A stretch of DNA of 64,000 bases. Origin: Planctomycetota bacterium. GTDB lineage: Bacteria; Planctomycetota; Planctomycetia; Planctomycetales; Planctomycetaceae. Where the stretch lies: the NCBI GenBank assembly GCA_003388505.1, contig QQVO01000004.1:1-64000 (forward strand). Direction: 5' to 3'. Below the pieces are notes generated by a model that saw only the letters and a list, made by a program, of their open reading frames with translations, was not told the origin of the DNA and made no database searches. The position numbers were made by a program, and so were the translations under genes. Below are positions 26,581-44,489 of the stretch, piece after piece (positions within the stretch are counted from its first letter, which is position 1; every line of letters starts with the position of its first letter).

Positions 26581-26654
26581 CGAACCAAATGCACGAGCAA
26601 GATGCCCTTGGCACCCGTCGAGGTCCATCTGACGCGAAAGTGTGACCAGATCCC

Positions 26655-26795
26655 ATGCACTGCGACCGCTACCTCCCGCGACCGCTCAATCGCCGTCAAC
26701 TCCTGCAGCAAACAGGCAGCGGATTCGGCGCCGCACTGGGCGTGCCACTCGCTCAAAGCGACGTTGTGAGCGTGCAACAGATCGGATGGACCTGA
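26655..26795 (+). pseudogene. 5' remnant of a second DUF1501 gene
   Basis: An ATG-started frame of 46 residues begins MHCDRYLPRPLNRRQLLQQT and continues GSGFGAA, 25 of 27 residues identical to residues 3-29 of the intact DUF1501 protein at 27627. Over the matching 80 bases there are 11 differences; nine are silent. The match ends near 26736, after which the frame reads through unrelated sequence to a TGA at 26793. It therefore looks like the broken start of a once-functional paralogue. The Tat-type RRQLL motif is kept. The small gene at 26800 starts four bases after its stop. Confidence 0.8.
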
Positions 26796-26799
26796 GATT

Positions 26800-27033
26800 A
26801 TGTCGACGAGACGAATCGAATCCTCATTGACCAACACACGAGACATGCTCCGGCGGCAGCGCGCGGGATACGAGACTGCGCAGCACATGCGTTGGCGAAG
26901 TCTTCGCGCATTCTCTCACGATGAGAATCGTGACAGTATCGAAGAACTCCTTGATCTGGCGCACCGCCATGGTTCCAAGCGTCGGGCCAGCGGACTCGTT
27001 GACTGGCAACAGCGCATCAGCCGAGCAAGATGA
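26800..27033 (+). CDS. Small protein, paralogue A' (candidate antitoxin of the adjacent nucleotidyltransferase)
   Basis: 77 residues, ATG 26800. Related to the 80-residue protein at 26297 (RDMLRRQRAGYE and SGLVDWQQRISRAR). Basic and helical with no recognisable DNA-binding domain. Its stop codon overlaps the start of the nucleotidyltransferase gene in an ATGA arrangement, a sign of translational coupling that is common in toxin-antitoxin and nucleotidyltransferase/partner pairs. The likely role is to accompany or control that enzyme. No known antitoxin family was recognised, so this is inference from position and duplication. Confidence 0.7.
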   Translation: MSTRRIESSLTNTRDMLRRQRAGYETAQHMRWRSLRAFSHDENRDSIEELLDLAHRHGSKRRASGLVDWQQRISRAR

Positions 27034-27623
27034 TGACTCCGGTGATCGAGGCGGCGATCAAGATTCAGGAATTCTGCCAACAAGAGCAGTGGAGATTCTG
27101 CATCATCGGAGGACTCGCAGTATTGCGCTGGGGCGAGCCGCGAGCAACCAGGGACGTTGATGTTGCGTTGTTGACCGGTTTGGGAGGCGAGCAGGACTAC
27201 ATTGATAAACTGACGTCAAGGTTCGCGGAGCGCGAGCCCGGCGCAGCCCGCTTTGCATTGGAGGCGCGAGTGCTCCTGCTCGATGCTGAAAACGGAGTGC
27301 CCCTCGATGTCACGTTCGCCTGGCTTCCCTACGAGGAAAAGCTGATGGAAAGGGCTTCTGACTTTGAATTCGCCCCCGGACAGATGCTTCATACCGCCTC
27401 GTTGGAAGATCTTGTCGTGCTGAAGGCGCTTGCTCCTCGTCCACAGGACGAGACGGACCTTGAAGGCATCATTGCGCGGTCCGACCCCGAGATTGACTGG
27501 AACTACGTAGAAGACAATCTCTCGGAGATGGATCGAATCCTGGAAACGGATGAAGCATCAAGACGTCTATCGGAGGTGCGGCAGCGAGTTCGAGCCGCTT
27601 TCGATGATCCTTCGTCGCTTTGA
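27030..27623 (+). CDS. Nucleotidyltransferase-fold protein (AbiEii/MNT-like)
   Basis: 197 residues from ATG 27030 (27033 is the next choice). The minimal nucleotidyltransferase active-site pattern is present: IIGGLA with G27-G28, the metal-binding pair D42-x-D44 in TRDVDVALL, and a third aspartate, D93, in PLDVTFAWLP. The family transfers nucleotides to RNA, proteins or small molecules; AbiEii and MNT toxins and their antitoxin relatives share this core. The C-terminal part is helical (VLKALAPRPQDETDLEGII). It overlaps the small gene A' by four bases and ends three bases before the DUF1501 gene. That places a probable defence or toxin-antitoxin pair inside a DUF1549-DUF1501 unit. Which partner is toxic is not known. 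Confidence 0.8.
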   Translation: MMTPVIEAAIKIQEFCQQEQWRFCIIGGLAVLRWGEPRATRDVDVALLTGLGGEQDYIDKLTSRFAEREPGAARFALEARVLLLDAENGVPLDVTFAWLPYEEKLMERASDFEFAPGQMLHTASLEDLVVLKALAPRPQDETDLEGIIARSDPEIDWNYVEDNLSEMDRILETDEASRRLSEVRQRVRAAFDDPSSL

Positions 27624-27626
27624 GAA

Positions 27627-29054
27627 ATGACCATGCATTGCAACCGCTACCTCCCCCGCCCCCTCAATCGCCGCCAACTGCTCAGGCAGACAGGCAGCGG
27701 ATTCGGCGCCGCCGCGCTTAGCGCGCTGCTGGCTGACGGTTCGCTCGCTGCGCCCGGCAAAGCGCCCTTTGCGCTCAAGGAGCCGCATCATGAGCCGCGG
27801 GCGAAGCACGTCATCTTTCTGTACATGGACGGTGGTCCCTCACAGGTCGATACGTTCGACCCGAAACCCGCGCTGCAGGCGGAGAACGGCGAGCCATTCA
27901 AAATGGAGATCCAGCCTACGCAGTTCGATAACATCGGCAATTCGCTCGGCTCCCCGTGGCAGTTCCGTCCCGGCGGGGAATGCGGCCTGCCGGTGAGCGA
28001 CCTGTTTCCGCACGTCAGGGAATGCGCCGACGAACTTTGCGTCATTCGCTCGATGACCTCCGAGTTCCCCGAGCACACCAACGCCAATTACTTCCTGCAC
28101 ACGGGCCACGGCTTGCAGGGGCGGCCCAGTATGGGCGCCTGGTGCGCATACGGACTCGGTTCCGAATGCCAGAACCTGCCCGGCTACATCGTCCTCAACG
28201 GCGGACTCATCCCCCCCGGCGGCCTGGAGTGTTTCGGCAGCGGATTTCTGCCCGCCACCTATCAAGGCTCCGTCTTCAAGAAGGGCGCCACGCCCGTCGC
28301 CGATGTCACCCGGCTGGAACCGACCGATGCGGCCCAACTCCGCAAATTGGAGTTGATGCGACGCCTGGACGAGAGCGTCATCGAACGGGCCGGAAAACAG
28401 GACGCGCTTGAATCGGCGATCGCCAACTACGAACTTGCGTTCCGCATGCAGACCGCCGTCCCCGACCTGATGGACATCGCGCAGGAAACGCCCGCCACCC
28501 AGCAGATGTACGGCCTCAACCACGAATGGCCCGGCACACAGACCTTCGGCCACGCCTGCCTCGTCGCCCGCCGGTTGGTCGAGCGCGGCGTCCGCTTCAT
28601 TCAACTCACCTGCCCCGGCGGCAACGGAGACCGCTGGGATCAGCACTCAGGTCTCCGCGACGGCCACGAAAAGAACGCCCGTTCCGTCGATCAGCCGATC
28701 GCCGCGCTGATCAGCGATCTCAAGGCCCGCGGACTCCTGGATGAAACGCTCATCATCTGGGCCGGCGAATTCGGCAGAACGCCCTTCGCACAGGGGACCG
28801 ACGGCCGCGACCACAACCCGTTCGGCTACACCGTCTGGATGGCCGGCGGCGGAGTCAAGGGCGGCTTGGCCTACGGCGCGACTGACGAGTACGGCTATCA
28901 CGCCATCGAGAACAAACTCGAGATGCACGACCTGCATGCCACGATGTTGCACCTGCTCGGGATTGACCACGAGCGCCTGACCGTTCGCTTCTCCGGCCGG
29001 GATATGCGGCTGACGGACGTCTTTGGACATGTGGTGACGGACATCATCGCATAA
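27627..29054 (+). CDS. DUF1501 protein with Tat signal
   Basis: 475 residues. The N-terminus carries a Tat-like signal (RRQLLRQTGSGFGAAALSALL, twin arginines at 15-16), so it is exported folded. The body has the alkaline-phosphatase-superfamily-like features of DUF1501: VIFLYMDGGPSQVDTFDPKP near 50, GPSMGAWCAYGLGSE-type motif, WDQHSGLRDGHEKNARSVDQPI, and IIWAGEFGRTPFAQGTDGRDHNPFGY. These proteins are usually encoded directly after DUF1549 genes and are thought to act with them on sulfated or other carbohydrates; the reaction is unproven. Fragments of a second copy lie upstream (26655) and downstream (29711). A palindromic repeat begins right after the stop codon. Confidence 0.9.
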   Translation: MTMHCNRYLPRPLNRRQLLRQTGSGFGAAALSALLADGSLAAPGKAPFALKEPHHEPRAKHVIFLYMDGGPSQVDTFDPKPALQAENGEPFKMEIQPTQFDNIGNSLGSPWQFRPGGECGLPVSDLFPHVRECADELCVIRSMTSEFPEHTNANYFLHTGHGLQGRPSMGAWCAYGLGSECQNLPGYIVLNGGLIPPGGLECFGSGFLPATYQGSVFKKGATPVADVTRLEPTDAAQLRKLELMRRLDESVIERAGKQDALESAIANYELAFRMQTAVPDLMDIAQETPATQQMYGLNHEWPGTQTFGHACLVARRLVERGVRFIQLTCPGGNGDRWDQHSGLRDGHEKNARSVDQPIAALISDLKARGLLDETLIIWAGEFGRTPFAQGTDGRDHNPFGYTVWMAGGGVKGGLAYGATDEYGYHAIENKLEMHDLHATMLHLLGIDHERLTVRFSGRDMRLTDVFGHVVTDIIA

Positions 29055-29129
29055 CAAGTAGGGCCGGCTGTGCCGGCCGCCGACTGACGGTTGGTCGATT
29101 CCGGCCGGCACAGCCGGCCCTACTTGGCT
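29055..29129. repeat. Palindromic repeat element, complete copy 1
   Basis: Left half GTAGGGCCGGCTGTGCCGGC (29058-29077) and right half GCCGGCACAGCCGGCCCTAC (29104-29123) are inverted copies separated by a 26-base spacer. The last 35 bases (29095-29129) are repeated without any mismatch at 29677-29711. Confidence 0.85.
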
Positions 29130-29676: not shown

Positions 29677-29768
29677 TCGATTCCGGCCGGCACAGCCGGC
29701 CCTACTTGGCTTTGGACATGTGGTGACCGACATCATTGCGTAGCAAGCAGGGCCGGCTGTGCCGGCCA
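29677..29768. repeat. Palindromic repeat halves flanking the DUF1501 3' remnant
   Basis: A right half (29677-29711, identical over 35 bases to 29095-29129) is followed by 33 bases of DUF1501 tail, then by a left half CAGGGCCGGCTGTGCCGGCC (29748-29767). The order right half - gene tail - left half is what tandem duplication of [gene tail + element] would leave. Confidence 0.8.
29711..29743 (+). pseudogene. 3' remnant of a second DUF1501 gene
   Basis: The frame reads FGHVVTDIIA and stops at TAG (29741-29743), the same as the last ten residues of the intact DUF1501 protein. Differences from 29022-29054 are at third codon positions (ACG/ACC, ATC/ATT, GCA/GCG) and in the stop codon (TAA/TAG). All are silent, which suggests the fragment derives from a gene that diverged under selection. 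Both copies are followed by the same CAAG(T/C)AGGGCCGG repeat. Confidence 0.75.
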
Positions 29769-29883: not shown

Positions 29884-29952
29884 CAAGTAGGTCGGCTGTG
29901 CCGGCCGACGACTATTGCTTTGTCGATTCCGGCCGGCACAGCCGGCCCTACT
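29884..29952. repeat. Palindromic repeat element, complete copy 2
   Basis: Left half CAAGTAGGTCGGCTGTGCCG (29884-29903) and right half 29923-29952, the latter identical to the first 30 bases of 29095-29129. It lies 100 bases upstream of the WD40 gene start. Confidence 0.8.
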
Positions 29953-30053
29953 GGACTCTTGCGCACCGATCGCCTTGCTGCAACGCATCAGACAGTTCTG
30001 ATACGATTTCCGTCAGCTGGAGGAGTCGGAATCCGCGATCGGAGATCAAAGCA

Positions 30054-33000
30054 ATGCTCGCATTCCAGCGCAAACAGAACGCGCTCGTGTTTTTCGCTCT
30101 CTTGGCGCTGCTCGCGCTCACCTCAGCCCCTTCCGATGCTCAGGATGAAGCGGCCGAGCCCCTCGTCCTTGAAGGGCACGAATCCGCCGTCAACATGGCC
30201 AGCTTCACGCCCGACGGCGAGCAGGTCGTCACGGTCAGTTCCGACCACACCGCGATTCTCTGGGACGCCGAGACAGGCGAAGTAATCAAGACGTTCGAAG
30301 CGCACACCGCCCCCATCTCCTGTCTCTCGATCAGCGCCGACGGACGACTGCTTGTCACCGGCGCTCAGGACAACACGCTCCGACTCTGGGATCTCCCCCA
30401 ATCACGTCCCCAGAAACAACTGGTCCTCCACGAGGGAACGCTCTCCACGTTCGCGCTCAGCGGCGATTCAACCAGTTTCCTCTCGGTCGGCGCGGACAAG
30501 GCCGTCCGCTTTGGTCCCTGGTCGAGTGATGAGCAGGCTCAGTCCGCGCCCGGTCACGAAGTGTCCGTCTCGGCAGCCGCCATGCGCAGCGACAATGCCC
30601 TCTTCGCCACCGGAGACGAACAGGGAACCGTGCTCATCTGGAGCCCGTTTCTGGAAGGACCGCAGGGCACACTCGGCGCCCACACAGGTCCGGTCAGCGC
30701 GATCGCCTTTCATCCCAATAATCAGCAATTCCTCACCGCCGGCGCCGACGGCCGCCTCAAGCTGTGGCAGCTTCCGATCGCACCGGCGAAAGAACTGGCC
30801 GGCGAATCCGGCGTGCTGCGCACAGTCACCGCTCCCACAAACCAGCCATGGAGCGTCGTCGCCGGCGACGACAAGACAATCCGCGTCTTCAACACGACCA
30901 CCGGTGAGTTGGTCCGCGAAATCCCCGGCCACGAAGCCTCGATCGGCGTGCTCGCCGTCAGCCCGAACAACGCTCTCCTCGCCAGCGGCGATGACTCCGG
31001 AGCCGTTCGCTTCTGGAACCTCAATGACGGCGCTGACCGATTGTCCGTCGCCGGTCACACCGGACCGGTGCGGTCCGCTGCGTTTCTTCCCGACAACGCC
31101 CGCCTCGCGACCACAGGCGAGGACGGAACGCTCAGGCTCTGGAAGTTGCCCATCGCCCGGCAACCGCTCGCGGGGCACTCCCAGCCGATCCGCGCCGTCG
31201 CCGCCAGCCCGGATGGGCAGATGTTCGCGACCGCATCGGACGATCGTACAGTCAGGGTGTGGAACGCCGCCGGCCAGGCGACCCGAGCGCTTCAGGGATT
31301 CGAGCAACCGGTCCGGTCGCTGGAGTTCCGCAGGGACGGGACACAACTGGCGACGGGAGACGCCGCCGGCGTCATTCGGCTCTTCAACCCGGCCGATGGG
31401 GCGCTGCAAGCCACGTACGGCGGACATGCCGCACCGGTCCTGCATCTCGCGTATGCACCGGAAGGGAATCACCTCGACAGCGCCGGGGAGGACGGCACGC
31501 TCAAGCGTTGGATGCTTCCCCCGCCCGCCGCCCGCGTTCTGACAGGCCATCCACAACCGGTGCAATCGGTTGCCATGACGAACGACGGGAAACAGACAGT
31601 GAGCGGCGGCGCGGATGGCACAGTCCGCGTTTGGGATGCAGAAACCGGCCAGGCCGTCCGCACGCTTGAAGGCCAGGAGGGCCCCGTCAAGTCGGTCTCC
31701 CTCAGTGAAGACGACACGCTCATCGCCGCCGCCGGCGACGCCGGCAACGTCAGGTTCTGGAAAGCGGCCGACGGCGCGCCCTCCGAACTCCTTCCCGGCC
31801 ATGCCGGCCCGATTGCCGCAGTCGCCGTCAGTGCGAAACGCAACCTCGCCGCCACGGGGGACGCCGACGGCGTCGTTCGCCTCTGGCGGTTGGGAGTTGA
31901 GCGAACGCAATTTCCCGGAGAAGCCTCCCCGATCACCGCCGCCCGCGTCAGTCCCGATGGAAAGCGGATCGTCCTCGGAACGACTGTCGGCGAACGCCCG
32001 GCTCTCGTTATCCGGGATACGAAAACCGGCGAGACTCTGGCCACACTGCTGGGACACGAGGCCCCGGTCACCGCCGTCGCCTTCGGAAACAACTCCAGAC
32101 TCATCTCCGGCAGCGCCGACAAGACGGCCCGCGTCTGGGATCTGGCCGACCCGAAGTTTGCTCAAATCGGCATGCTGGCCGATCATGCCGGCCCTGTTCT
32201 CGCTGTCGCTCTCAGTGAAGAAGGCGATGTCGCCTGGTCCTCCGGAACCGAAAACGTCATCCGGCAGTGGACGGTCGCCGACGGCGCGGAAGTCCGCCAG
32301 ATCGCCGGCCACGGCACCACCGTCACAGCTTTGGAGACGGCGAAGGAACGACTGATCTCCGGTTCCATGGACGGCACTCTGCGGATCTGGAATCCTGCCG
32401 ACGGCGCCGCAGTACGAACAATCAACCACGGGGCGGCGGTCCACTCGTTCGACGTGATGACAGCCGGCGATCAGTTGCGGATCGTCTCGGGAGGTGCCGA
32501 CAAGAACGGCAAGATCTTTAGTGCCGCGGACGGCCAACTCCTGGCCACCCTCGCCGGCGCAGCCGACGTCGTCACGCACGTCGCCGTCTCACCGGACGGA
32601 GAACGCATCGCCTGCAATTCGGCCGACGGCGTCCGCGTGTGGGATCAAGACGGAATCCCGATCGAGCGAATCGTCACCGATGTGCCGTTTGATGCGGCGG
32701 CCGGTTTTCGTGCCGACTCTCGCACAGTCCTGCTGGCAACCACCGATGGAGTCATCCGCGTCCAGCCCTCGCGCGTGCAGTCCCTCCTCACCGGCCACGA
32801 GGGCCCCGTCACGGCAGTCGCGTTCACGGCAGATGGGACGCATCTCATCAGCGGCGGGGCCGACAAGACTGTCAGAACATGGGCGACGGCAGACGGCGCG
32901 TCCTTGAGAACACTCACCGGTGCGGCAGACGCCGTCACGAGCCTGTCGGTCTCCGCCGAACACAAGCGCGTCGCCGCCGCCGCGGGAGCAGGAGGCGTTC

Positions 33001-35411
33001 GCGTGTGGGACGCGGCGGTGCTCACCAAACCGGGTGGACCCGCCATTAAGCCGCCGGTAGTCCTTCCAGCCGAGCAACCAATTCGCAGCGTCAGCTTCAG
33101 CGGCGACGGACAGTTCCTCGCGACATGCGGCGACGACCAGACCGTCAGAGTCTGGCACGTCGAGAAGTCCGTCGAACTCGAACGCTTCACCGGACACACC
33201 GCCGCGGCAACGAGCGTGGCCTTCGCACGGGACGCCCGGCGGCTCGTTTCCGGTGCGGCCGACAACTCCGCCCGCGTGTGGGATCTGTCGGCCGAACTGA
33301 TCGCAGTGACGGAGAATCCAGCCGCGCAGATCAGCGTCCTCTCCGGTGACCTCGGGTTCGCGTCGATCGACGGTTCATCGCCGCATCTCACGCTCTGGTC
33401 GGCCGATGACGGACCGCAGCCTGCCTTTGAGAAATCAGAGCGACCCCTCACCGATTTCGCTGTTTCTCCCGACGGCGAACATCTCTGCACGGTCGATGCG
33501 GAAGGCGTCCTCCGCTTGCTGTCCCTGCCGGAGGGTGAGCAACTCGCCGTCGTTGGAACCGGTTCCCCCGTGACGTCCCTGGCCTACAGTCCCGACAACA
33601 CGAAGATCGCCGCCAGCGACGAGCAGCACCGCCTGCGGATTTACGATGCCGGGACTCTCCGCCTGCTCGAGCAGCACTCCACAACTTCAACGGCGGTCGA
33701 TATCGCCGTCGGAGCCGAAGCCGCGACCATTCTCACGGCGGAAGCCGAGCCGACCCCTTACTTGACCACGTCATCGCTGACCATGCTGATCGACGCACAC
33801 GAGGGGCCTGCAACGAGTGGCGCCGTCGCGGCCAACGGCCAATTCGCGGTGACGGTGGGAGAAGACCGGGCCGTCCATCTCTGGAATCTCGCCGACGGCA
33901 GCCTCACGCGGTCGTTTGAAGGAGCCGCAGAATCGCTCACCTGTCTCGCCCTCACGCCCGATGCGACGAAAGTCATCGCAGCCGGAGCGGCCGGCGTCGT
34001 TCACATCTGGAACACGGCCGACGCAGCGGAACTGATGACGATCAACCACGGCGCGCCGATCGCCGCCCTGCACTGCAGCCCTGACGGGACCAAGCTCGCC
34101 ACCGGCGGAGACGACGACACCGTCCGCGTCTGGGATCTCGTCACCGGCAATGAGTTGCAGTATTTCTCCGGGCACGAAGCGGCGGTCACGGGAGTCAGAT
34201 TCGGTTCCGACAATCGCACACTCACTTCGGTCGGCGAGGACAAGTCGGCCCGCGTCTGGATGCTCAGTGCCGTCTGGGCCGGCGCAGCACACGATGGAGC
34301 AGTGCACGACCTTGAGCTGCAGACCGGCGGCGCACAGGTCGCGACCTGCGGAGCCGACGGACGCATTGCGGTCTGGAACTCCGCCAACGGCCAACTCGCT
34401 CGTGAAATCGAAGCCGAAACCGAATCACTGTCAATCGTCATTCGCCCCGACAACTCCCGCCTCGCGGCCGGTGGAGCCGACGGCGTTGTCCGCGTCTTCA
34501 ACTTCGGCAACGGCGCGCCGCTCTTCGAACTTCCGGGGAACGAGAGCGTCTCCGCCCTCGCTTACAGCCCCGACAACCAGAAACTCGGCGTCTGCGCGGC
34601 GCAATCGCTCACCGTCTATGGGCCGCCGGTTCCCGCCCAACAGGGCGTCGAACTGGCCCGGCACCAGTCGATCGCGGCCGATTCCGAGCTGACCGACCTC
34701 CATTTCGCTTCGGACAACCGGCGGATGTTCGTCTCCGACGTCGACGGCCGTCTGAGCGAATGGACCTATGCCACGCCCGGCCCTGTGCGGCAATTCAATC
34801 ATGGCGGATCGGTCTTCGGCGTCGCGATCAACGGTGACGGCACAACGATCGTCTCCTGCAGCGCCGACCAGACCGTCAGAGTCTGGAACGCCGAAACCGG
34901 ACAACAGCGGGCCCAGTTGAACGGCCACCAGGGACCGGTCTACGCCATCGCACTTTCAGGCGACGCCGCCCTCGCTCTCTCCGCCGGAGCCGACAGCACG
35001 CTCCGCCTGTGGGATATCGCCGGCGGACGTCAGCTTAAACAACTGCCGGCGGGCGACGGCAACGTCTACTCCATCGCGATCAATCCCGAGGGAACGCTCT
35101 TCGCCACGGCCGGAAGCGATCGGACCGTGCGCATTTACGATCTGCTGACCGGCGAGGAACAACGAGCAATGACCGGTCACTCCGACTTCATCCACAGCGT
35201 CGCGTTCAGCCCCGCCGGCAACCGCCTCCTTTCGTACGGATACGCCGGGAATCTCATCGTCTGGAATCCGGCGGACGGGGCGCAGGTCTACGGCGGTGAA
35301 GTGGGGCGCGTCGGAAATTACGCAGCCTGGTCGCCGGACGGAACTCGCGTCGTTGTTGCCAACGGCAACGGCACGGCCGAGATCGCCGATCTCCCGCCCG
35401 AAGCCCGGTAG
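30054..35411 (+). CDS. Giant secreted WD40-repeat protein
   Basis: 1785 residues from ATG 30054; the frame is open for 73 further codons upstream, but only this start gives a signal peptide (MLAFQRKQNALVFFALLALL, cleavage after SDA). Counting by eye, the mature chain divides into 42 WD-type blades of 38-46 residues, many of the canonical form GH-GPV-AVAFS-DG--L-SG-ADKTVRVWD. Blades 3, 15, 21, 26, 29 and 36 are divergent. Forty-two equals six seven-bladed propellers, which would make a rigid string of beta-propellers outside the cytoplasm. No catalytic, cytochrome or membrane-anchor segment was seen. Such proteins usually act as scaffolds. It is a single gene, 63 bases from a convergent lipoprotein gene. 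Confidence 0.9.
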   Translation: MLAFQRKQNALVFFALLALLALTSAPSDAQDEAAEPLVLEGHESAVNMASFTPDGEQVVTVSSDHTAILWDAETGEVIKTFEAHTAPISCLSISADGRLLVTGAQDNTLRLWDLPQSRPQKQLVLHEGTLSTFALSGDSTSFLSVGADKAVRFGPWSSDEQAQSAPGHEVSVSAAAMRSDNALFATGDEQGTVLIWSPFLEGPQGTLGAHTGPVSAIAFHPNNQQFLTAGADGRLKLWQLPIAPAKELAGESGVLRTVTAPTNQPWSVVAGDDKTIRVFNTTTGELVREIPGHEASIGVLAVSPNNALLASGDDSGAVRFWNLNDGADRLSVAGHTGPVRSAAFLPDNARLATTGEDGTLRLWKLPIARQPLAGHSQPIRAVAASPDGQMFATASDDRTVRVWNAAGQATRALQGFEQPVRSLEFRRDGTQLATGDAAGVIRLFNPADGALQATYGGHAAPVLHLAYAPEGNHLDSAGEDGTLKRWMLPPPAARVLTGHPQPVQSVAMTNDGKQTVSGGADGTVRVWDAETGQAVRTLEGQEGPVKSVSLSEDDTLIAAAGDAGNVRFWKAADGAPSELLPGHAGPIAAVAVSAKRNLAATGDADGVVRLWRLGVERTQFPGEASPITAARVSPDGKRIVLGTTVGERPALVIRDTKTGETLATLLGHEAPVTAVAFGNNSRLISGSADKTARVWDLADPKFAQIGMLADHAGPVLAVALSEEGDVAWSSGTENVIRQWTVADGAEVRQIAGHGTTVTALETAKERLISGSMDGTLRIWNPADGAAVRTINHGAAVHSFDVMTAGDQLRIVSGGADKNGKIFSAADGQLLATLAGAADVVTHVAVSPDGERIACNSADGVRVWDQDGIPIERIVTDVPFDAAAGFRADSRTVLLATTDGVIRVQPSRVQSLLTGHEGPVTAVAFTADGTHLISGGADKTVRTWATADGASLRTLTGAADAVTSLSVSAEHKRVAAAAGAGGVRVWDAAVLTKPGGPAIKPPVVLPAEQPIRSVSFSGDGQFLATCGDDQTVRVWHVEKSVELERFTGHTAAATSVAFARDARRLVSGAADNSARVWDLSAELIAVTENPAAQISVLSGDLGFASIDGSSPHLTLWSADDGPQPAFEKSERPLTDFAVSPDGEHLCTVDAEGVLRLLSLPEGEQLAVVGTGSPVTSLAYSPDNTKIAASDEQHRLRIYDAGTLRLLEQHSTTSTAVDIAVGAEAATILTAEAEPTPYLTTSSLTMLIDAHEGPATSGAVAANGQFAVTVGEDRAVHLWNLADGSLTRSFEGAAESLTCLALTPDATKVIAAGAAGVVHIWNTADAAELMTINHGAPIAALHCSPDGTKLATGGDDDTVRVWDLVTGNELQYFSGHEAAVTGVRFGSDNRTLTSVGEDKSARVWMLSAVWAGAAHDGAVHDLELQTGGAQVATCGADGRIAVWNSANGQLAREIEAETESLSIVIRPDNSRLAAGGADGVVRVFNFGNGAPLFELPGNESVSALAYSPDNQKLGVCAAQSLTVYGPPVPAQQGVELARHQSIAADSELTDLHFASDNRRMFVSDVDGRLSEWTYATPGPVRQFNHGGSVFGVAINGDGTTIVSCSADQTVRVWNAETGQQRAQLNGHQGPVYAIALSGDAALALSAGADSTLRLWDIAGGRQLKQLPAGDGNVYSIAINPEGTLFATAGSDRTVRIYDLLTGEEQRAMTGHSDFIHSVAFSPAGNRLLSYGYAGNLIVWNPADGAQVYGGEVGRVGNYAAWSPDGTRVVVANGNGTAEIADLPPEAR

Positions 35412-35473: not shown

Positions 35474-36970
35474 TCATGGCAAGCTGACCGGGCTGAGCCC
35501 CAGACAGGCCCGGTAAGTGTTCAGCACCCGTTGCCGCCCCAGTTCTTCGATCAACTCGATCCACTCGTCGCCGACCGCCTGCAGCGCATCTTCCGGGGAG
35601 GCGTCTTCCGTCAGCGCGCGCGTTACCTGTTCGCCTAGTGGTTCCCGAAATCGCTGCCGCTGCGGAAGTGGAAGATCGGCCGCCACTCGCGTCGACGTCA
35701 ACTGTTTCGCCGCCACCTCCAGATGCGCCTGCCACGTGCTCGCCGGCAAACCGCTCATGGGCGATCGCCGTGCACCCGCCAGCCGGCTGGTGCGGCAGAT
35801 TCCCGGCAACCAGGCAGGCGGTTCTCCACTGGTCTGCAGATCGTCTTCAATCATTCCCCACAGATTCCAGGACGCTCGCTGCTGCGGTTCCGTCGCTCCG
35901 GCATGCACGCAGACCGCGTATCCCTCGAAACCCGCCAGGGTCACGCGATAAGGTCCACTCTCCGCCGAGAGATCGCTCCATTCCCCAGTCTCTCGATTGA
36001 AGACGCTCAGCGATCCGGGCAGCGGACAGACGCCGATCGTCCCCCCGGCCGTCCCCTCCCCGGCGTCCGTGGAGTCCGGGACATCGCGGGTCGGACTCGC
36101 CGGAAGTCCGATCGCCAACGCGGCGCGGCCCTCCGTCACCTCCCGCAAACATTCGCCCGGGCCGAGCGTCAGAGAGGCCTGATCGAGATACGGCGATGCC
36201 GCCTGCATGTCGGCGAGCGACCGCAGGAATGCCTCCGAAGCAATCAAGGGCTCACCCGTCTGGATATCGAGGTATAGCGACAGACTGTCCGGATGCAGCG
36301 CCAAAGAGGCCGCTCGAGCCAGAAACAGACTCGCCCGAAACTCCTCGCCCCACGGTTCCACCGCGGCCATTTCAGGAGCCCAGTCCGGCAGCGTTTCCAG
36401 CAGAGTCTGGTAGTCGTCCCACGTTTCCGGCGGCGATTTCCCGGCCGCTTCCAGCAGGTCAGACCGGTAGTAACATGCCAGCACGGGACACGACACGGGA
36501 AGCACCCCCGGTTCCCCGCCCGGACGACACATCCCGTTTCTCAGCCCTTCCATCACGTCGTCCCACCGCGCGTCGAGCGCATCGTCATTGAGCGTCATCG
36601 AAGCCACCCAACCCGCGTCGACCAGTTCCGGCAGCGACGACAGTGGCGCCAGGACGATCGTGCACTCGCCCGGCAGACGCGGAGAATCTCCCGCCTCCCC
36701 TGCGAAATCCAGTTCCGTGACCGCGCACGTCCCCCCCGTCGACGTCTCCCATTCTGAAACAGGGATCGCGATCTGTTCCTCGAAGCTCAGTTCTTTCGGA
36801 ATCGTCAAGTGGGTCCGGACGCCGCGAACAGCGGAGATTTCCTCCGGAGGCTGTTCGGGAGTCGCCTGACCGCGGCATCCGCCACACACAGCCGCCGCTG
36901 CCAAGATCGCCAGCAACGTGCCCACCGCATTCAAGTTGCCGCCGACAACCGAAGATTCCTGCCGCGTCAT
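35474..36970 (-). CDS. Extracellular solute-binding lipoprotein (family 1-like)
   Basis: 498 residues from ATG 36970 (TTG 36997 would add nine). The signal LLAILAAAAVCGGC ends in a lipobox with lipid-accepting cysteine. The fold pattern is that of ABC-type solute-binding proteins: an N-terminal strand-helix lobe, LSSLPELVDAGWVASM, VLPVSCPVLACYYRSDLLEAAGKSPPETWDDYQTLLETLP, and a later GRAALAIGLP segment. Those last two regions are the usual signature of carbohydrate-binding proteins. No permease or ATPase gene is adjacent, so it may be a receptor or work with a distant transporter. It is transcribed towards the WD40 gene's 3' end. The next gene upstream is 343 bases away, behind a dispersed repeat. 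Confidence 0.75.
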   Translation of the reverse strand: MTRQESSVVGGNLNAVGTLLAILAAAAVCGGCRGQATPEQPPEEISAVRGVRTHLTIPKELSFEEQIAIPVSEWETSTGGTCAVTELDFAGEAGDSPRLPGECTIVLAPLSSLPELVDAGWVASMTLNDDALDARWDDVMEGLRNGMCRPGGEPGVLPVSCPVLACYYRSDLLEAAGKSPPETWDDYQTLLETLPDWAPEMAAVEPWGEEFRASLFLARAASLALHPDSLSLYLDIQTGEPLIASEAFLRSLADMQAASPYLDQASLTLGPGECLREVTEGRAALAIGLPASPTRDVPDSTDAGEGTAGGTIGVCPLPGSLSVFNRETGEWSDLSAESGPYRVTLAGFEGYAVCVHAGATEPQQRASWNLWGMIEDDLQTSGEPPAWLPGICRTSRLAGARRSPMSGLPASTWQAHLEVAAKQLTSTRVAADLPLPQRQRFREPLGEQVTRALTEDASPEDALQAVGDEWIELIEELGRQRVLNTYRACLGLSPVSLP

Positions 36971-37053
36971 GGTCCGCGCCGTCCCTGCCAGATTCAAGTG
37001 CTGTCGTTTCTATACAAATCCTGTTCAGCCGGTCTCCAATCAGTTCATTGATT

Positions 37054-37293
37054 GAGTGACTCTTCGAGAGATTCGAATGGAACGCGGATGACCACGGATT
37101 GGACTGATTTTCGCTGATTGCTTTCTGTGGAGTGCAGAATATTCACGCTTGAATCGGTGCGGTCTCGTCGCTGCCGCCCCTTGAAGAAATTCACCGCAGA
37201 ATCCGTGCTGATCCGCCAAATCCGCGAAAATCTGTGTCCTGTTCGAGAATCCCCTGGGGCCGGGCCCCAGCCGACTTGTGTGTAACTGACAGG
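37054..37293. repeat. Large dispersed repeat, copy 1 (about 240 bases)
   Basis: Matches 44237-44489 along its length: a conserved left part (GAGTGRCTC, TTCGAGAGAT, GCGGATGAC, CGGATTGGAC, GATTTTCGCTGATTGC), a variable centre, and a strongly conserved right part (AATCCGTGCTG, CCGCCAAATCCGCGAAAATC, TGTGTCCTGTTCGAGAATCC). It fills most of the 343-base gap between the lipoprotein and the 1066-residue gene, which otherwise holds no gene. Confidence 0.85.
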
Positions 37294-44236: not shown

Positions 44237-44489
44237 GAGTGGCTCCTCGAGAGATTTGAATGGAGCGCGGATGACGACGGATTGGACCGATTTTCGCTGA
44301 TTGCCGTATTCCGTGTCGACGCCAGGCGCGCCTGGGTCGATGCATTCTCGGCGCTGCCGCCTCTTCAGGAACACCCCTCAAAATCCGTGCTGGTCCGCCA
44401 AATCCGCGAAAATCTGTGTCCTGTTCGAGAATCCCCTGGGCCCGGTTTCCTCGCGGCGGGCTCCCGCCGGGTTGTGTGGAACTGACAGG
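44237..44489. repeat. Large dispersed repeat, copy 2 (about 250 bases)
   Basis: Same layout as 37054-37293; the two differ mainly in the middle and in the GC-rich block before the end. Both end at TGTGGAACTGACAGG or TGTGTAACTGACAGG. It occupies most of the gap between the STAS-like gene and the toxin-antitoxin-like operon. Confidence 0.85.

Follow-up and report, generated by a model that had tools for sequence, protein, structure and literature searches.

How do 42 WD40 blades in a single exported chain close into propellers? The question is raised by an open reading frame (ORF) of a Planctomycetota bacterium (GenBank assembly GCA_003388505.1, contig QQVO01000004.1, positions 1 to 64,000); this 64,000-nucleotide stretch is referred to as the window, and coordinates are positions in it. 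The ORF under study (30054-35411, + strand) starts with ATG, carries GGAG 9 nucleotides upstream of the start, and encodes a protein of 1785 amino acids, whose N terminus, MLAFQRKQNALVFFALLALLALTSAPSDA followed by QD, is a probable Sec signal peptide as read by eye. The initial annotation described six seven-bladed propellers that close consecutively (blades 1-7, 8-14, and so on). Our analysis bears out their number and size in one exported chain, whereas the path of the chain has to be redrawn: the protein very probably consists of six seven-bladed WD40 propellers that are recursively nested, each being inserted into the previous one. The blade observation itself is confirmed, and the interpretation of the chain changes from tandem to nested.

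The count of 42 blades is upheld by a hand cut, an independent profile, and a blade-for-blade orthologue. Cut by hand, the blades tile residues 37-1785 exactly. The same total came from a cyclic blade profile whose 255 training blades were all taken from relatives, none from the window: it found 42 blades, each scoring at least 3 bits, and not the 40 or 43 that the initial annotation had named as counts speaking against its own. With leave-one-out profiles, 39 of the 42 blades exceed the best of 300 self-shuffles; blades 21, 26, and 29 fail this test, and blades 37 and 42 pass narrowly. The earlier list of divergent blades stands in part: blades 21, 26, 29, and 36 are weak, but blades 3 and 15 reach 26 and 24 bits in the leave-one-out test, above blades 37 and 42, which had not been listed. 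The Pfam WD40 family (PF00400) matches the chain with 786 bits over 20 stretches (cut-off 27). The orthologous chain of L072 (VGZA01000016.1, a Planctomycetota metagenome-assembled genome) has 42 blades that are collinear one to one with those of the window chain at 37.5% identity; L151 also has 42, with 44% identity across residues 2-1785, and L048, entered as 42 in the counts, has 41 full blades and a last one matched over 20 columns.

The junctions that lack the usual D-x-x-T-G-like turn, as read by eye, fall after blades 2, 5, 8, 11, 14, 21, 25, 29, 33, and 37; by score alone, 6 of the 10 lowest-scoring junctions are shared with these breaks. A spacing of 3 is thus followed by seven blades and then by a spacing of 4, the pattern expected if each seven-bladed ring takes three outgoing and four returning blades. 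In the proposed layout (Table 1), the chain would run outward through 2 blades of the base ring and then 3 blades for each of four rings, make the tip ring (blades 15-21) whole at its turning point, and then complete the four rings in the opposite order with 4 blades apiece before closing the base ring with 5, so that the latter would be split into two outgoing and five returning blades. As the base ring would hold the first and last blades, both chain ends would lie in it, and the tip ring would form the far end of the ladder. For n rings, the rule places breaks after blades 3k-1 (k = 1 to n-1) and 3n+3+4j (j = 0 to n-2).

Two constructs for AlphaFold2 (AF2), blades 1-25 and blades 18-42, were chosen before the nested model was formulated. 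The model of blades 1-25 (10-row alignment) has a mean predicted local distance difference test score (pLDDT) of 84.9 and a predicted template modeling score (pTM) of 0.57. By 10-residue means, pLDDT is 89.6 over blades 12-25 and 79.1 over blades 1-11, the partners of which under nesting lie outside the construct. Apart from the first three residues, pLDDT falls below 50 for at least three residues only at model positions 87-89, 212-216, and 337-341, and these three segments are the junctions after blades 2, 5, and 8. In a VIA-align comparison with the PDB, the best match was 7big_A, a designed seven-bladed propeller (Z 43.4, root mean square deviation 1.6 Å), of which 285 of 286 residues are aligned across model 461-1049 (blades 12 to 25), leaving out roughly 300 residues in between; the 50 alignment rows start at model 432-469, end at 1038-1052, and align 276-303 residues. 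About seven blades of chain are therefore skipped inside one ring, as the nesting of blades 15-21 within blades 12-14 plus 22-25 predicts. The model made this discontinuous 12-25 ring although a contiguous pair (12-18 and 19-25) was available. Seven-bladed rings built from separated parts of the chain are thus indicated by AF2 and VIA-align for ring 5, and by junctions and periods for the others.

Relatives were gathered by genome searches and a listing of related loci, and the family figures given here hold among the matches listed; the regions fetched were hand-picked from the match lists, long open frames first. A fixed filter kept 54 complete strings, among them the window chain and some WD40 chains from outside the family, and removed 22 ORFs at contig ends, 2 duplicates, 57 ORFs with the first blade past residue 180, 7 long-tailed ones, and 12 with fewer than 14 blades. 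Blade totals are multiples of seven (7n) in 49 of the 54 strings: 14 blades (5 strings), 21 (22), 28 (9), 35 (6), 42 (4), 56 (2), and 70 (1). The remaining strings are L047 (57, or 56 if an alanine-rich loop that by inspection was taken as a blade is left out), L164 (53, one stretch of it not recognizable as blades), L156 5091-10028 (34, also matching the PSCyt query), L089 (19, Gemmatales), and L116 (23, Spirochaetaceae). These totals, 42 = 6 x 7 among them, fit tandem and nested rings alike and cannot by themselves separate the two.

Junction scores were therefore compared between 64 split models, not all of them distinct, with nesting represented by the rule "2 then 3." In the window, the nested split is the best of the 64, with a score of 8.0 versus 2.3 for the tandem arrangement of six contiguous seven-bladed propellers; averaged over 28 relatives, the window excluded, the scores are 6.7 for the nested split, 3.6 for the next best, and -1.7 for the tandem one. 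Of the 29 chains in this first set, the window among them, 16 place the nested split first; for chains of at least four rings the figure is 10 of 11 (9 of 10 relatives). A second set, several members of which are close relatives of one another, was picked from the list of relatives after the rule had been fixed; 14 of its 16 complete strings have 7n blades, and the nested split comes first in 11 of these 14. When the sets are pooled, it is first in 28 of 44 strings with at least three rings and in all 13 with at least five, and it scores above the tandem arrangement in 46 of 49 strings. The latter wins in the other three, and is second best in L151 (4.6 versus 5.8) and L072 (3.8 versus 5.8). 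However, none of the 13 chains tested in full length shows self-similarity at offset 7 (z no higher than 1.5; window z -0.9), so there is no signal of whole-ring duplication. Taking the junction test together with the 12-25 ring of the part-chain model, the rings of the window chain are very probably not all contiguous, and consecutive closure is improbable.

The blade periods point to two arms of unequal step. Longer chains tested whole show self-similarity peaks at offsets 3, 6, and 8, and when the arms are taken separately, the period is 3/6 in the outgoing arm and 4/8 in the returning arm. For the window, z is 4.9 at offset 3 in the outgoing arm and 4.0 at offset 8 in the returning arm, and the arms of the 70-blade L053 reach 10.9 at offset 6 and 9.9 at offset 8. 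Among chains with at least five rings, z is at least 2.5 at offset 8 of the returning arm in 13 of 13, and at least 2.8 at offset 3 or 6 of the outgoing arm in 12 of 13, L151 being weak. The switch of period falls inside the predicted tip ring in 12 of these 13 chains and in 18 of 23 overall. The dominance of offsets 6 and 8 in the respective arms of the longest chains would also suit three six-bladed followed by three eight-bladed contiguous propellers (6+6+6+8+8+8 = 42), and the AF2 model of blades 18-42 did form an eight-bladed ring. Such an arrangement is nevertheless very unlikely, as odd totals of 21 and 35 blades (28 of 54 strings) are impossible from sixes and eights alone, the main outgoing peak lies at offset 3 in the window and L108, the breaks are spaced by 3 and 4, the AF2 ring spanning blades 12-25 is seven-bladed, and the equal number of rings in both arms would be left unexplained.

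The pairing of triplets with quartets was compared through their ring similarities. The correlation is higher for nested than for parallel pairing in all seven first-set chains, with p<0.05 in six, and in five of six second-set chains, none with p<0.05 (12 of 13 together). Composite 3+4 rings in parallel pairing, with the first triplet joined to the first quartet, would give the same periods and totals, reach p<0.05 in three of the seven first-set chains (as expected if ring types alternate), and do less badly in L165, but they are the least likely arrangement of all in view of these correlations and of an AF2 ring that spans blades 12-25 around an inner stretch.

Several observations weigh against the nested layout. 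The rule came from inspecting the window by eye, which makes its p value there post hoc, and the relatives, several of them from one genus, are not phylogenetically independent. The nested split is not first in 16 of the 44 strings with at least three rings (it ranks 10 in L046, 14 in L160, 5 in L161, and 2 in L159) and is first in none of the five 14-blade strings, which have two breaks each and hence low power; in two more 14-blade regions, from a multidomain ORF and a cut-off ORF, it ranks 29 and 37. The window is itself an exception as to the period, its best switch lying at blade 23, beyond the tip ring by two blades. The 28-blade chains are mostly weak in the outgoing period and are without the returning one, the two-period score beating shuffles (p<0.05) in 2 of 10, and the mirrored arrangement scoring higher in 5 of 10. 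The nested ring-similarity correlation is not significant in the window (r 0.21) or L151 (0.08) and is -0.94 in L165 (parallel, -0.18), and the significance of parallel pairing in three chains belongs here as well. As VIA-align gives the first and last aligned residues only, the 3+4 split of ring 5 rests on junctions and periods.

The AF2 models, too, cover parts of the chain from shallow alignments (10 and 12 rows), with pTM values of 0.57 and 0.45. The model of blades 18-42 (12 rows; mean pLDDT 81.1), in which no ring would be complete under nesting, lacks the outgoing arm and closes an eight-bladed ring of blades 18-25 (model 1-335), whose best matches are eight-bladed or longer propellers; over model 334-661 (blades 26-33), it matches seven-bladed rings, with about seven of eight blades aligned. 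The edges of these rings coincide with the predicted breaks after blades 25 and 33, and we read them as probably the forced closure of orphan quartets in the model. AF2 rings in truncated chains need care, those in the model of blades 1-25 included.

Beyond the window, these proteins are likely to form an exported family that has arisen by recursive insertion of propellers to a depth of three to ten (21-70 blades), in which the base ring is shared, two ring types alternate in the longest chains, and the arms gain matched steps of 3 and 4 blades. The base ring is the part common to all aligned relatives. The window chain combines a 7n total, the break rule, and a GYAGNLxVW-like motif in the last-but-one blade, as do most but not all relatives. 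In the 70-blade L053, rings 3, 5, 7, and 9 are mutually 47-57% identical and rings 4, 6, and 8 are 45-51% identical, versus 30-43% for other pairs. A similar alternation is seen in L050 and L049 (38-43% for most middle pairs two rings apart), the one conspicuous pair in the window and in L048 is rings 3 and 5 (39% and 42%), and L072 and L151 have none. Growth by a single contiguous insertion at the tip does not explain the pattern in L053, where identity rises tipward (rings 7 and 9, 57%) but the tip ring is unlike the others.

The genome of the window also holds two more 28-blade strings, the last blade of one being only partly matched, and a shorter WD40 gene cluster (L051:6408-10541, L057:4341-8048, L059). 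Several giant WD40 strings share one contig of G006 (L053, L047, L170); among the complete ones, the longest has 70 blades.

The best PDB sequence match of the window chain is 2YMU (407 bits), a Nostoc protein with 14 WD40 repeats in two propellers (PMC5587647) and likewise a bacterial multi-propeller WD40 chain. It has two rings and is highly repetitive by its title, whereas the window chain has six, with 24-39% identity between rings and a predicted discontinuous path; the comparison concerns ring number and repetitiveness, not the chain path of 2YMU. The split WD40 domain of AMBRA1 makes one seven-bladed ring from N- and C-terminal parts of about half each, but as a lone ring around a long loop, no nested second propeller being described in the portion available (PMC10665379). 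In the triple propellers of DDB1 and CPSF160, one ring of three is built from three discontinuous regions in a compact tristar (PMC5760199), whereas five of the six rings in the window chain would be discontinuous and serially nested. The TAPE domain of EML has two associated propellers and one blade from distant chain parts, this single blade being its only composite element (PMC4761370). Highly repetitive propellers can also have many blades, 47 in one fungal protein, but these are more than 60% identical, and 92% were amplified from single blades (PMC9218822), in contrast to units of three and four blades with much lower identity in the window chain. The window chain falls outside that class, which is defined by a median internal identity above 60%, its 24-39% being ring averages and not blade medians. 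Relatives of the window chain reach ten rings. A literature search on nested or serially discontinuous propellers and on planctomycete or multi-propeller WD40 strings found no such ladder at the level of titles and abstracts, subscription journals lying mostly outside its scope. To our knowledge, nesting six to ten levels deep would go far beyond usual nested domain insertions. AIP1 (1NR0) was also considered as a two-ring precedent, but the literature searched yielded nothing on the path of its chain.

We hold the nested topology of the multi-ring string to be very probable. Such a path would turn a closed ring fold into a long object whose two chain ends lie together at one end, and neighboring rings, linked by two crossings, should be stiffer than beads on a string. 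A further ring would call for three more blades in one arm and four more in the other, and blade totals nonetheless remain multiples of seven, so that the architecture itself would count. Repeat amplification is described as having no counting system (PMC9218822), a point that the matched 3+4 gain with 7n totals makes testable. Annotation or structure prediction by contiguous pieces can yield wrong rings, as the AF2 model of blades 18-42 probably did. With regard to function, the scaffold or binder role suggested in the initial annotation is plausible. More tentatively, the chain might be an exported, stiff, two-stranded ladder that serves as a spacer or scaffold, its base ring docking on a partner and its ring number setting its reach; the partner may be the product of the neighboring PSCyt/PSD1 or DUF1501 gene.

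Table 1. Proposed segments of the WD40 chain and neighboring genes in the window
Feature	Coordinates	Strand	Basis
Probable Sec signal peptide, cleavage after SDA	30054..30140	+	Translation read by eye
Ring 1 (base), outgoing, blades 1-2	30162..30407	+	Blade table, break model, AF2 pLDDT <50 after blade 2 (model 87-89)
Ring 2, outgoing, blades 3-5	30408..30782	+	Break model, AF2 pLDDT dip after blade 5 (model 212-216)
Ring 3, outgoing, blades 6-8	30783..31157	+	Break model, AF2 pLDDT dip after blade 8 (model 337-341)
Ring 4, outgoing, blades 9-11	31158..31526	+	Blade table, break model
Ring 5, outgoing, blades 12-14	31527..31898	+	Break model; VIA alignment of AF2 model starts at blade 12, ends at 25
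Ring 6 (tip), contiguous, blades 15-21	31899..32774	+	Break model; fits length skipped in VIA alignment
Ring 5, returning, blades 22-25	32775..33299	+	Break model, VIA alignment; ring edge after blade 25 in AF2 model of second half
Ring 4, returning, blades 26-29	33300..33779	+	Blade table, break model
Ring 3, returning, blades 30-33	33780..34274	+	Break model; ring edge after blade 33 in AF2 model of second half
Ring 2, returning, blades 34-37	34275..34778	+	Blade table, break model
Ring 1 (base), returning, blades 38-42	34779..35408	+	Break model; family motif GYAGNLxVW in blade 41
PSCyt1-PSCyt2(DUF1549)-PSD1(DUF1553) protein, 1366 aa	22178..26278	+	Pfam 71, 275, 270 bits
DUF6036 nucleotidyltransferase-like protein	27030..27623	+	Pfam 29.2 bits, cut-off 23.6
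DUF1501 protein, probable Tat signal (RRQLL, by eye)	27627..29054	+	Pfam 493 bits

The statement that no enzyme is attached holds for the chain itself; PSCyt/PSD1 and DUF1501 genes adjoin it, the order upstream of the WD40 gene being PSCyt1-PSCyt2-PSD1, DUF6036, and DUF1501, which places it among PSCyt/PSD1-DUF1501-linked WD40 genes. Similarity to the window proteins identifies a PSCyt-type gene immediately after the string in L071, L072, L151, and L153, and DUF1501 and PSCyt-type genes on the flanks of the strings in L047 and L049. The linkage is partial in relatives, 5 of 20 distinct 21-blade loci showing a PSCyt or DUF1501 match in the fetched stretch. The adjacency of WD40 and DUF1501 is already known, DUF1501 having been reported as often adjoining planctomycete WD40 genes (PMC5587647), and a carbohydrate role has been suggested for PSCyt (PMC5615132).

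Between the PSCyt and DUF6036 genes, 26653-26734 is an 87% match to the beginning of the DUF1501 gene (27631-27712), which looks as if insertion of the DUF6036 gene had been accompanied by a duplication of this part. Palindromic elements of the GGCCGGCTGTGCCGGCC type lie between the DUF1501 and WD40 genes at 29055-29126, 29684-29767, and 29890-29958. The convergent neighbor (35474-36997, - strand) has a weak match to a solute-binding protein (26.5 bits, just below the Pfam cut-off of 27), and two repeat pairs, about 90% alike and in the same order and spacing, are found at 37054-37263 and 44237-44445.
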